Below, in pieces: positions 1,293 to 6,424 of a stretch of DNA of 64,000 nt (the stretch's first letter is position 1; each line of letters starts with the position of its first letter). Origin of the DNA: Poseidonibacter antarcticus (GTDB lineage: Bacteria; Campylobacterota; Campylobacteria; Campylobacterales; Arcobacteraceae); the NCBI RefSeq assembly GCF_003667345.1, contig NZ_RCWF01000006.1, positions 1 through 64,000 on the forward strand. Direction: 5' to 3'. The translations under genes and the position numbers were made by a program. Under the pieces are notes generated by a model. It worked only from the letters and a program-made list of their open reading frames with translations, was not told the DNA's origin and did no database searches.

Positions 1293-1487
1293 ATGGAAGA
1301 AATGAATATACAATGTCCATATTGCTTACAAGCAATTACTATCTTACTTGATACAGGTGTTTATGAATACACAACATTAATTGATGATTGTGAAGTATGC
1401 TGTAGACCTATTGAAATATCATACAATGTTGAAGATGGTGTAGTTTCAAGTATTTCTTATACTAGTATGGATGGTAATGAATACTAA
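1293..1487 (+). CDS. CPXCG-motif cysteine-rich protein
   Basis: A 64-aa protein of the Cys_rich_CPXG type. It has CPYC near residue 8, the conserved EYTTLIDDCEVCCRPI segment, and an acidic C-terminus. The paired cysteines (C8, C11 and the CEVCC cluster) suggest a small zinc-ribbon fold, though the first motif ends in L rather than the usual G. AAAAAGGA lies 6-7 bases before the ATG. It converges on a diguanylate cyclase gene with 11 bases between stops. Molecular function of the family is unknown. Confidence 0.8.
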   Translation: MEEMNIQCPYCLQAITILLDTGVYEYTTLIDDCEVCCRPIEISYNVEDGVVSSISYTSMDGNEY

Positions 1488-1498
1488 TTTTTAAGTTG

Positions 1499-3340
1499 CT
1501 AAAATAAGTCAACACTTGAAACTTGTTCTGTTTTGAATCTTACTACTTGATTTCTTCCTTGATTTTTTGCCTCATATAAGGCTATATCTGCATTTTTAAT
1601 AACAGATTCAAATGTAGATGAATCTTCAGGATACATTGATAAACCTATACTTACTGTTTTTCTTAATTTAGTTCCTGCGTATATGTCAATCTCATTATCT
1701 TGTACTCTTATTCTTATTTTTTCAGCTACATTAAATGCATCTTCTTCTGTTTTAACATTTACAAGTAAAATAACAAATTCTTCACCACCATATCTTATAA
1801 CAATATCAGATTCTCTTACTGTTTCATTTAATATTCTAGATAACTCTTTTAATACTTTATCTCCAATATCATGGCCATATTCATCATTTACAGCTTTGAA
1901 ATGATCCATATCAAGTAATAAAACACCAATATTAAAATTCTCTCTTTTTGCTTGTAAAATTAATTTTTTACTATGTTCTTCTAAGAATTTTCTATTATAA
2001 AGTCCAGTTAAACTATCTTGAAATGCTGATTCTTGTAAAGCATTCATAAGAAGTTTAACTTCAATTGAAGGAGTAGATTCATTTATATAACTTTTGATAT
2101 AAGAAATCTTTTCTTTTAATTCTTCTAATTCTTCTTTTGAATCTAATACAAAATTTATAACCAATTGTATATTTTCTATAATTTCATTACTCAAACAATA
2201 ATGGAATTTCTCTTTTTCTTCAAAAAAAGCACAACTTGAATGAAAATCAATTGATAATACATCATTTTTTGTTCGAACTGCTCTACATTGTTGAGGATTT
2301 TCTTCTAAATGTTTTCTACAATAAAAAGTATCTCCTTGTTGTTTTACAATTTCCATTTTTCTTTTTTGAGTATTAATTTCTATAAATGTGAAATTACTAA
2401 TGTGAAATTGATTTTGTAATATTTCAGATATTCTATTATATATTTCTTCTTTAGTATTATCTTGTTCAATTTCTTTTTTAAATTGATACAGTGCAGATAA
2501 GTTCGTAATTATCTTTTTTGAATCTTCTAAAGAATTACTCTCATTATTAGATTCTTTTCCAATAAAACCTTTTAATTTTTTATCAATATCAGTTGAAGTT
2601 TCTTTTAAAGAAACAATTAAGCAATTAAATTTATCCATTAAAGTCATTACATCAGTTGATAGATTCTGAGGATATGAAATTTTTTCAAATTTACCATTAA
2701 TTGCTAAAGTCAAGCTTGTAGTTAAATTTTCAAATATTTCTAAATATTGATTTAAATTTTTTCTAAAAATAAAATAAATAAATAATAATCCAAGAAAAAT
2801 AATGAGTGGTATTAAATATAACTCTTCAAACTTAGATTGTTTAATATTAGTTATATCAAATTCTAAAGATATTGCACCTAGAGTATCTCCAGTTAAAACA
2901 TTATGACACCTAGTACAATCTACTCCATTTTCCCATACGGCTTTGTAGGGAATAGTTATACGAACAAATGATTTGTCTAAGGTATCATTAAAACTATAAA
3001 TAGTTTTTCCTGTCTTTAATACTTCCTTATCAATATCATCTCTTGGTTTTTTCTTTTCATTTAGTCCAAATTGTTTATTTATTGATTGATTACGTACCAT
3101 CCATAATTCATTAATATTTTTCATACTAGCAACAGAATTAATAAATGTATCAGATCTATGCATATTTTTATCTATCATATATGCAGTTAAACCATTTTTT
3201 ATAACCTGAGCAGTAGCTTCTGCACTATTAACTGCAATTTTTATATTATTATTTTTTAAACTGTAAAAACTTAAGACACTAATAGAAACAATTAAAAGTA
3301 TAGAAATAATTGTAAATTGATAAATAATTTTTTTATTCAT
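1499..3340 (-). CDS. Membrane diguanylate cyclase with periplasmic heme-c sensor
   Basis: A 613-aa c-di-GMP synthase. A transmembrane helix (about 7-28) and a second (about 173-192) flank a periplasmic domain. That domain contains a heme c attachment motif CTRCH at 142-146 and the sequence DTLGAISLEFD, as in DUF3365/Tll0287-like heme sensors. A cytosolic middle domain (about 280-400) holds four spaced cysteines (341, 352, 370, 382). The C-terminal GGDEF domain has an intact active site GGEEF (518-522) and an inhibitory-site RESD (509-512), so product feedback is expected. The heme suggests redox, NO or O2 sensing. The ligand is inference; cyclase identity is firm. It is divergent from another diguanylate cyclase. 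Confidence 0.9.
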   Translation of the reverse strand: MNKKIIYQFTIISILLIVSISVLSFYSLKNNNIKIAVNSAEATAQVIKNGLTAYMIDKNMHRSDTFINSVASMKNINELWMVRNQSINKQFGLNEKKKPRDDIDKEVLKTGKTIYSFNDTLDKSFVRITIPYKAVWENGVDCTRCHNVLTGDTLGAISLEFDITNIKQSKFEELYLIPLIIFLGLLFIYFIFRKNLNQYLEIFENLTTSLTLAINGKFEKISYPQNLSTDVMTLMDKFNCLIVSLKETSTDIDKKLKGFIGKESNNESNSLEDSKKIITNLSALYQFKKEIEQDNTKEEIYNRISEILQNQFHISNFTFIEINTQKRKMEIVKQQGDTFYCRKHLEENPQQCRAVRTKNDVLSIDFHSSCAFFEEKEKFHYCLSNEIIENIQLVINFVLDSKEELEELKEKISYIKSYINESTPSIEVKLLMNALQESAFQDSLTGLYNRKFLEEHSKKLILQAKRENFNIGVLLLDMDHFKAVNDEYGHDIGDKVLKELSRILNETVRESDIVIRYGGEEFVILLVNVKTEEDAFNVAEKIRIRVQDNEIDIYAGTKLRKTVSIGLSMYPEDSSTFESVIKNADIALYEAKNQGRNQVVRFKTEQVSSVDLF

Positions 3341-3529: not shown

Positions 3530-5044
3530 TTGAAAAAATTTATTTTCTATTCTTTTACGACATTTATAATATTGTCAACTATAAGTTTTATACAAATTTA
3601 TCATAACTTAGATAAATATGAAGTCTCAAGTTACAATAAAAAACAAAAGCAATTAAATCTTATTATAAATGATACGCACAGATTATCAAATGCTTTATTT
3701 GATAATGTTATTAATACAAAAAAAGTTATTGATGTATTTAAAAAAGCAAATAAATCCTCAGATGAAGAAAAAATAAAAATTAGAGAAGAATTACATACCT
3801 TATTAGTCGATAATTATAATAATTTTAAAAATTATGGTATTCAACAATTGCATTTTCATCTTCCTAATAATGATAGTTTTCTTAGACTACATAAGCCATC
3901 AAAATTTGGAGATAGTTTAACAGATGTACGAGCAAGTGTAAAGTTTGTTAGTGAAAATAAAATTCCTATAATAGGTTTTGAAGAGGGTAGAATTTTTAAT
4001 GGTTATAGATTTGTTTATCCTCTTTTTGATGAAAATGAAGATTATATTGGTAGTGTTGAAATTTCATCATCATTATTGAATTTTAAAATATTGTTTGAAA
4101 AAAATAATAATACACATATTGATTATATTTTAAGAAAAGATATTGTTGAAAAAAAAGTTTTTAAAGATCAATTAATAAATTATAAAAAATACTTTTTATT
4201 TGATAATTTTTTAATACAAAAAATTATTGCTGATTATAATGTAAATTGTATACATGAAGTTGAAAGAAATATCATATTTAAGAAACTCTCAAAAAATAAA
4301 GAGTTTTTGAATAAAATGAATAATCTAGAAAATTTTTATGATATTTATTTTTATGATTTTAAAGTATATTCAATAAAATTAACTCCTTTAATTAATGATT
4401 TTACATCTAAAAAAGTTGGATATATTATAATGTTTTCAGAATCTGATTATTTTAAATATATTTTGGATTCATATATAATTATTATATTAATTATTGGAAT
4501 GTTATCAATTTTAATTGCTTATATTGCTTATAAAAAAGATAAAGAAAAAAAGTTAACTGTCGGACTAGCAATGCATGATCAATTAACTAATATTTATAAT
4601 AGACACTATTTTAATATAAAAATTAAACAAGAATTTAAAAAAATGCAAAAGCAAAATATTCAATTGTCTCTTATAATGTTTGATATTGACCATTTTAAAT
4701 TAATAAATGATACTTATGGACATAATATTGGAGATGAGTCATTAATTTATTTAGCCAATCTTATACAAAATAATATTAGAGTAAATGATATTTTTTGTAG
4801 ATGGGGAGGAGAAGAATTTGTAATCCTTTCTAAAAAACCATTTGATAAAACAATTATTATGGCTGAATATCTTAGAAATACAATTGATAATAAAACAAAA
4901 GACAATGAGAAAATACCTCACTTTACTTGTAGTTTTGGAGTTAGCTCATTAAATAATGTAACTAGTATAAATGAAGGACTTGAAATAGTTGATAAACTAC
5001 TTTATAAATCTAAAAAAAATGGTAGAAATAAAGTAAGCTTTTAA
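3530..5044 (+). CDS. Membrane diguanylate cyclase with double-Cache sensor
   Basis: A 504-aa c-di-GMP synthase. An N-terminal membrane helix (about 4-22) is followed by a periplasmic region with the run LHFHLPNNDSFLRLHKP, the hallmark of the dCache_3 sensory domain. A second helix (about 313-335) leads to a C-terminal GGDEF domain with GGEEF at 426-430 and inhibitory-site RVND at 417-420, both intact. The start is TTG, with GGA seven bases upstream; no better ATG exists. The divergent 189-base region shared with the heme-containing cyclase holds no gene. Confidence 0.9.
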   Translation: MKKFIFYSFTTFIILSTISFIQIYHNLDKYEVSSYNKKQKQLNLIINDTHRLSNALFDNVINTKKVIDVFKKANKSSDEEKIKIREELHTLLVDNYNNFKNYGIQQLHFHLPNNDSFLRLHKPSKFGDSLTDVRASVKFVSENKIPIIGFEEGRIFNGYRFVYPLFDENEDYIGSVEISSSLLNFKILFEKNNNTHIDYILRKDIVEKKVFKDQLINYKKYFLFDNFLIQKIIADYNVNCIHEVERNIIFKKLSKNKEFLNKMNNLENFYDIYFYDFKVYSIKLTPLINDFTSKKVGYIIMFSESDYFKYILDSYIIIILIIGMLSILIAYIAYKKDKEKKLTVGLAMHDQLTNIYNRHYFNIKIKQEFKKMQKQNIQLSLIMFDIDHFKLINDTYGHNIGDESLIYLANLIQNNIRVNDIFCRWGGEEFVILSKKPFDKTIIMAEYLRNTIDNKTKDNEKIPHFTCSFGVSSLNNVTSINEGLEIVDKLLYKSKKNGRNKVSF

Positions 5045-5709: not shown

Positions 5710-6081
5710 TTATTTTATATCTAGAATAATTTTATTAACAATATCTATCAGTTTTTGAATTTCATTTTTTGAAACTTTATAAATAATTTCTGCATCCATA
5801 TCAAAATAATGATGAGATAATATATCTCTAATTCCTTTTACTTCTTTCCATGGAATCTGTGGATAGTTCTGCAAAAGAGTGTTATTGGAAAGTTTATCAA
5901 TATTTTTAAAACCTTCTCCAATAGCTACTAATCTCATAGAAATACTATCAAGTTTTTCTAAACCAGATTCATTAGTTAAAAAGTCATCTGATGAGTTTAT
6001 ATCTTTAACTCTATTTTGGATTAATTTTAGTGAATATTGAATATCTTCTAGTGTAGAAAGAATTAATGCTTTGTTATGCAT
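5710..6081 (-). CDS. hepT: HepT-like ribonuclease toxin (DUF86)
   Basis: A 123-aa all-helical protein of the HepT/DUF86 family, the toxin of MNT/HepT toxin-antitoxin systems. The RX4HXY motif is intact (R85, H90, Y92 in RDILSHHY). Its ATG overlaps the stop of mntA by 8 bases (ATGCATAA), showing translational coupling with the antitoxin first. In studied pairs the nucleotidyltransferase AMPylates the toxin tyrosine, and the Tyr needed for that is present. It sits at the distal end of the island, a common place for stabilisation modules. Confidence 0.88.
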   Translation of the reverse strand: MHNKALILSTLEDIQYSLKLIQNRVKDINSSDDFLTNESGLEKLDSISMRLVAIGEGFKNIDKLSNNTLLQNYPQIPWKEVKGIRDILSHHYFDMDAEIIYKVSKNEIQKLIDIVNKIILDIK

Positions 6082-6373
6082 TAATTAAATCTTTTTTTAT
6101 AGTTTGAAGTAGAAAAGGTTTGATATTTTTATGTTCTCTTATGATATCAACTTTTTTATCTAAATCATGCTCAATTTGATTTTTAATAGCTACCATATCA
6201 AATAAAGATGGCTTCATTTTTACAAAAATATCTATATCACTATCTTCTGTTGCTTCATCTCTTGCATAGCTTCCAAATAGTCCTATTTGTTCTACACTAT
6301 ATTTATCTTTAAATTCGGAATAATGCTCTTTTAAATAGTTTAATATATTTGTTTTATTAACATTTTGTGACAT
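6074..6373 (-). CDS. mntA: MntA-like nucleotidyltransferase antitoxin
   Basis: About 99 aa, a minimal nucleotidyltransferase. The GSX10DXD signature is complete in GSYARDEATEDSDID. Partner of HepT, which overlaps its 3' end. Two in-frame ATGs occur: 6379, only 3 bases after AAAGGATA, and 6373, 9 bases after it. The second has the better spacing and is chosen. Members of this family neutralise HepT by adding AMP to a tyrosine; here that is inferred from pairing and motifs. Confidence 0.87.
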   Translation of the reverse strand: MSQNVNKTNILNYLKEHYSEFKDKYSVEQIGLFGSYARDEATEDSDIDIFVKMKPSLFDMVAIKNQIEHDLDKKVDIIREHKNIKPFLLQTIKKDLINA

Positions 6374-6424
6374 ATTCATTATCCTTTATTCTAATTTTTA
6401 TAAATAATTATAGCATAAAATTTT

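Follow-up and report, generated by a model that had tools for sequence, protein, structure and literature searches.

Extracytoplasmic sensors that pair a CxxCH heme-c motif with a signalling output have been described as sCache_heme domains (DUF3365/Tll0287), to which GSU0582 and GSU0935 are assigned. According to the available part of a 2026 preprint (PMC12889525), over half of all Campylobacterota and Aquificota genomes encode these domains, 3B47 is GSU0582, and the signalling-type sCache_heme protein tested there has NO-sensor properties. A precedent for an iron-sulfur cluster in a GAF protein exists in Hik2/CSK, which carries a [3Fe-4S] cluster (PMC6949291) that a review places in its GAF domain (PMC13421787). 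As far as the available part of the former paper goes, C19 is the only cysteine ligand, and its authors allow two non-cysteine ligands.

Here we describe a predicted diguanylate cyclase from the window, the whole stretch of 64,000 nucleotides of Poseidonibacter antarcticus DNA that was analysed (26% G+C). Between its membrane part and its GGDEF domain lies a domain of predicted GAF fold with four conserved cysteines. We put at about 0.5 the probability that the protein is a two-sided cyclase, with an outer heme-c sensor and an inner GAF domain whose four cysteines hold a cofactor, most likely an Fe-S cluster.

Domain layout and surroundings of the cyclase gene

The gene lies at 1499..3340 on the minus strand, as do all its features given below, and encodes 613 aa from an ATG start. 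Two membrane helices, placed by eye from hydrophobicity, cover about residues 8-28 (3257..3319, inside a model helix of residues 2-56) and about residues 173-193 (2762..2824, inside a model helix of residues 171-214). Between them sits the periplasmic heme-c sensor (residues 31-172, 2825..3250) with its CxxCH attachment motif at residues 142-146 (2903..2917). A linker that is helical in the model and HAMP-like by position only (residues 196-260, 2561..2755) leads to the four-cysteine domain (residues 266-433, 2042..2545), which contains the codons of C341 (2318..2320), C352 (2285..2287, in a CRAxRT motif), C370 (2231..2233) and C382 (2195..2197). Among nine relatives scanned, L196 matches HAMP above the cut-off and L200 below it. 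The C-terminal GGDEF domain (residues 439-598, 1547..2026) is the sole Pfam match above cut-off in the protein (PF00990, E 1.8e-50), and GGDEF chains were the matches listed in a structure search with the full-length model. All 51 full-length sequences have GGEEF (residues 518-522), and 50/51 and 49/51 keep the RxxD positions (residues 509-512); judged by these motifs, the protein would be a diguanylate cyclase able to synthesise c-di-GMP. Its seven cysteines are residues 142, 145, 240, 341, 352, 370 and 382. A sequence-only reading of the window had placed a CxxCH in the periplasmic sensor and the last four cysteines in a separate cytosolic domain; both assignments hold in the 613-aa frame, where the CxxCH at 142 is the only one. 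The closest named relatives of the window belong to Aliarcobacter and Poseidonibacter.

Conservation of the heme motif was read from alignment A3, which joins the window protein to 50 of the 53 relatives that form, with the window, alignment A2 (53 of 80 loci; members of both were picked by eye or completeness). C142 and C145 are kept in 51/51 sequences and H146 in 50/51. Two methionines, M55 (50/51) and M60 (48/51), are nearly as constant and might, at a guess, have a role as heme ligand. A profile of 32 sensors (A5), chosen by eye or completeness from the 51 sequences of A3, matches 3b42, the sensor of a methyl-accepting chemotaxis protein, at E 4.7e-5 with the CxxCH motifs aligned, and 3b47 at E 0.98. 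We take 3b42 to be GSU0935. The window sensor itself matches PF21563 (Mcp40H-20_sensor) with E 0.0088 or 0.00041, both below the cut-off for acceptance; at E 0.01, PF21563 was found in 10 of the 32 sensors and PF11845 in one, and a PF11845 search of the window genome did not find the window sensor.

The AlphaFold model of the middle domain has a pLDDT of 90.4 and a pTM of 0.85. In Foldseek, LuxR-type ligand-binding domains and GAF domains head the list (5l10, E 2.0e-4; 5w10_D, E 3.7e-4), and the best match in VIA-align is the GAF domain 3ci6_B (Z 12.6, rmsd 3.2, 147 aligned), so that a GAF fold is predicted. Pfam gave the window domain chance matches and no GAF match, and a scan of 61 members returned one GAF_2 match (E 0.019) among the 25 listed of 51 families. 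In the relative L236, PF01590 scores above cut-off (E 7.5e-8), and in L235 and L228 just below it; the profile of the L236 family (A4) aligns with the domain profile A1 at E 5.4e-12, pairing the four cysteines of each. Against solved structures, the domain profile found two chance matches only; A4 found 3ci6 at E 0.081. In the model, C341 and C352 would adjoin helix starts, C370 would lie in a loop and C382 in a strand.

The cyclase gene stands back to back, at a distance of 189 bases, with the gene for a second GGDEF protein with a dCache_3 sensor (3530-5044, plus strand). It is convergent with a gene for a 64-aa Cys_rich_CPXG protein (1293-1487, plus strand; PF14255, E 6.2e-12), and a HepT/MntA-like pair of nucleotidyltransferase and partner was recognised by reading at 5710-6379 (minus strand). 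Among 81 loci (80 and the window), with neighbour clusters named from one scanned member each, a glmS-like gene lies on the same strand in 50, an apbC/mrp-like gene on the other strand in 39, a thiC-like gene there in 36, and a glnD-like fragment upstream in 39. In L099, L102 and similar Sulfurimonas-type loci, the cyclase relative follows the glmS-like gene and faces the apbC/mrp- and thiC-like genes. The glmS/apbC/thiC neighbourhood is missing from the window and convergent genes form no operon; the neighbouring Fe-S carrier (apbC/mrp-like) is not counted as evidence. Three loci (L194, L198, L199) carry, beside the standard copy, a second and oppositely oriented paralogue that has CxxCH and four cysteines and lacks GG[DE]EF; that of L194 still matches the GGDEF family. 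Going by its motifs, this paralogue is perhaps a catalytically dead regulator.

Conservation and distribution of the four cysteines

Among 209 middle domains that differ in sequence, the window's included, 198 have all four cysteines. The first alone is missing in five copies, while three keep one cysteine and three keep none. C370 (98.6%), C352 and C382 (97.1% each) and C341 (94.7%) are the four best-conserved columns of the 209. The sequence-only reading named lack of conservation among homologues as what would refute it, and this did not occur. Its spacing C-x10-C-x17-C-x11-C, given as a pattern to be sought in relatives, describes the window domain and is rejected as a fixed signature, the intervals ranging over x5-11, x17-18 and x10-20 across the 198 four-cysteine domains. 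An additional cysteine stands three residues past C370 in 82 of these 198, and likewise in three of the five domains without the first cysteine; for this reason the ligand set of a cofactor may vary. In the count of five, L034 is included, although by eye it has a first cysteine slightly out of register, and L239 was filtered out of the 209 despite having all four cysteines. The profile that collected the 209 was built from cysteine-bearing copies, and cysteine-less copies are therefore probably under-represented among them.

Two further sets agree. In one fetched with the single window sequence, C341, C352, C370 and C382 are kept in 62, 67, 68 and 67 of 73 rows, and C142, C145 and H146 in 70, 71 and 68 of the same rows; C240 occurs in one row of the 73, that of the window itself. 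These rows were aligned from 82 loci after dropping a duplicate (L001), GGDEF paralogues from the window's own genome (L002-L008) and one locus without a match (L082). Six rows lack C352, and five of them (L074, L078-L081) have nothing but the heme sensor in common with the window and end, by reading, in HD-GYP or chemoreceptor parts. In the domain alignment A1 (the window and 60 relatives), C352, S363, C370 and C382 are invariant and C341 is kept in at least 90%, at identities to the window down to 24%. A1 excludes a duplicate (L009), the five sensor-only loci and the cysteine-less L071, and six of the remaining 66 were also removed by eye. Conservation by chance or within one lineage is ruled out by the 73-, 61- and 209-row sets. 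The six domains that keep at most one of the four cysteines form one clade, which makes the joint loss a single event and weakens the all-or-none pattern as a strong statistical argument. Their proteins all retain GGEEF, so the cysteines are not indispensable.

The four cysteines and the heme motif are separable. CxxCH accompanies four cysteines in 163 of the 209 proteins, three in five, and none or one in four; in 25 the four cysteines occur in the absence of CxxCH, in two both are missing, and in ten the N-terminus is too short to judge. The sequence-only reading had regarded two redox-capable modules in one GGDEF protein as unusual, whereas this combination turns out to be common in the two phyla examined. 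By reading, the 25 comprise 11 cytosolic proteins of a CBS/PAS type, seven whose periplasmic part is shorter and has no CxxCH, four that carry a different periplasmic part (L196, the one scanned, has HAMP), L240, which is weakly dCache-like below the cut-off, and two with a decayed motif. The last two (L024 and L026) belong to two species of the same genus as the window; their CxxCH has become CxxCN or CxxCI and their four cysteines are kept, so that they are natural variants for comparison. We rely here on the 209 set, since another count (11 of 80 without CxxCH) ran too high owing to wrongly parsed domain starts and truncated contigs. We also built a tree of 86 representatives by a 'quick' method, masking the cysteines; 36 of its 83 inner branches score below 80. 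On it, possession of three or more cysteines switches once and possession of all four switches five times, while the heme state shows at least four changes. The tree and the 209 counts together point to a four-cysteine GAF-GGDEF core as the more constant part, with the heme sensor as one of several inputs. Neither the predicted GAF fold of the middle domain nor the replaceability of the heme sensor figures in the sequence-only reading.

The architecture of heme-c sensor, four-cysteine GAF and GGDEF is widespread in the Campylobacterota, and in the presumed Aquificota, that were examined. Of 60 related genomes, 42 encode a relative of residues 1-427. Among 298 sampled Campylobacterota genomes, 82 (in 35 of 59 genera) have a match to profile A1; in seven of the 82 the sole match is a cysteine-less copy (G145, G177, G209, G244, G314) or a weak short one (G077, G129). 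The profile also matches 53 of 121 genomes of a second phylum, which we take to be Aquificota from the phylum of a Hydrogenobaculum locus, strongly in 44 (E below 1e-35) and weakly in nine. Most of the 18 weak A1 matches fall in proteins of greater length, 14 of them in open frames of 677-903 aa. Thirteen such proteins were fetched, and the four scanned have CBS and PAS domains followed by the GAF region and GGDEF. In this CBS/PAS family the four cysteines are invariant in 10 aligned members, the 10 of 13 that make up profile A4, and are found also in L230, L233 and L239. Among 249 Campylobacterota genomes A4 gave five matches, all at places that A1 also matches, and the CBS/PAS type was thus not seen there. 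GGDEF is present in 9/9 relatives scanned by Pfam. A genome-contig scan with one helix motif kept 80 of 201 relatives, with titles naming Campylobacterota, Aquificaceae/Hydrogenobaculum or 'bacterium', and a tblastn search for wider spread on plasmids returned nothing with the window domain (E up to 10) or the L236 GAF (E up to 1).

Candidate cofactors and proposed signal flow

Four conserved cysteines in a reducing cytoplasm would most simply hold a bound metal or cluster. The metal or Fe-S site that the sequence-only reading suggested is plausible. We infer that they bind a single cofactor, and its identity, its signal and the direction in which it would control the cyclase are put forward in the same sense. 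An Fe-S cluster seems most likely, with zinc and a thiol switch also possible. Four near-invariant cysteines in a cytosolic domain would suit zinc equally well, and a Zn(Cys)4 site, either structural or acting as a zinc or oxidant sensor on the cyclase, is possible though in our judgement less likely. Zinc control of a cyclase has a precedent in DgcZ, where, in the available part of a review (PMC8846402), it operates through another domain, CZB. The window cysteines, in contrast, are isolated, without any CxxC or CxxH pair, and their spacing varies among relatives; for a zinc site this is untypical and nothing stronger, given that 82 of the 198 four-cysteine domains have one CxxC. Three considerations lead us to favour Fe-S over zinc: this isolation of the window cysteines; the precedent of Hik2/CSK, a GAF protein with an Fe-S cluster as described in the available parts of the papers cited above; and the match that a sensor responding to NO, O2 or redox state would make with the heme partner. 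These are arguments of plausibility.

The cysteines could also work without metal. Free methionine-R-sulfoxide reductase (fRMsr) uses cysteines, and its structures are among the nearest folds of the middle domain (3mmh_A, Z 12.5; 3ksf_A, Z 12.0), which would suit a thiol switch that forms disulfides or reacts with oxidants or methionine sulfoxide. For c-di-GMP networks, the available part of PMC8846402 lists HmsC, a regulator based on disulfides. Homology to fRMsr found no support, however, in hhalign comparisons with E. coli MsrC (probabilities of 1.0% and 1.4%, a weak test against a single sequence), and the four cysteines are nearly always retained together, so that we consider such a switch improbable. 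We give still less credence to the idea that heme c is the sole sensing site and the four-cysteine GAF a passive structural transmitter. L071, L200, L201 and L202, which have CxxCH, GAF and GGEEF without the cysteines, are what this idea would lead one to expect, but it fits poorly with the 25 proteins that keep the cysteines without CxxCH, the two from the window's genus among them, and with a tree on which the heme state shifts at least four times and the state of three or more cysteines once.

In the two-sided cyclase that we prefer, the outer Cache-type domain with its covalent heme c would read a diffusible redox-active signal, probably NO or redox state, and the inner GAF, with a four-cysteine cofactor that is most likely an Fe-S cluster, would read cytoplasmic redox state, O2 or NO. 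It is established for cyclases that helices set the geometry of the GGDEF dimer. In the model, the second membrane helix, the linker helices, the GAF domain and a helix of residues 402-440 are predicted to run into GGDEF, and both inputs would act along this path on dimer geometry and hence on c-di-GMP synthesis. A broader proposal, to which we give slightly less than even chances, is that the domains form a new Cys4 GAF subfamily of iron-sulfur diguanylate cyclases across Campylobacterota and Aquificota, whose heme-bearing members would weigh what the periplasmic heme c reads against what the cytoplasmic Fe-S cluster reads (NO, O2 or redox state), across one membrane, before setting c-di-GMP. 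Since the domain has been kept through several changes of the N-terminal sensor, the Cys4 GAF is probably a main redox-type c-di-GMP input in two phyla rich in chemolithotrophs and microaerophiles.

Comparison with described systems

Titles and abstract starts among the matches listed from the open-licence literature named no Fe-S, zinc or four-cysteine GAF cyclase, and the available parts of PMC3460858, PMC6282519, PMC8139620 and PMC2994820 held no closer match. The terms 'iron-sulfur' and 'Fe-S' are absent from the main text of a 2022 review of sensory inputs to c-di-GMP (PMC8846402). DgcZ and the heme, globin and hemerythrin cyclases, in the available part of that review, are likewise metal- or heme-controlled c-di-GMP enzymes and use other sensor folds. 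MsrC is a stand-alone enzyme. It shares the GAF fold and is structurally near the window domain, and differs in giving no significant profile match, in the weak test with the single E. coli sequence.

Hik2/CSK, likened here by description, resembles the window protein as a GAF protein in which an Fe-S cluster, predicted in our case, reads redox state and controls an output domain. It differs in being a histidine kinase for which the available sources report no four-cysteine motif, and because only C19 acts as a cysteine ligand, its motif is not the same as that of the four-cysteine GAF. The sCache_heme proteins share with the window protein an extracytoplasmic CxxCH sensor joined to a signalling output, and the window sensor has no further cysteine, like the signalling protein without an axial cysteine in the available part of PMC12889525. 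NO binding there belongs to another protein; heme and NO binding by the window sensor are predicted only. The word 'GAF' does not appear in the main text of that preprint as far as it was available. Because sCache_heme domains are described there, the heme half of the present finding is already known in kind. Fold, output and heme partner thus all have known counterparts, and it is the cysteine site in the GAF domain that is apparently new.
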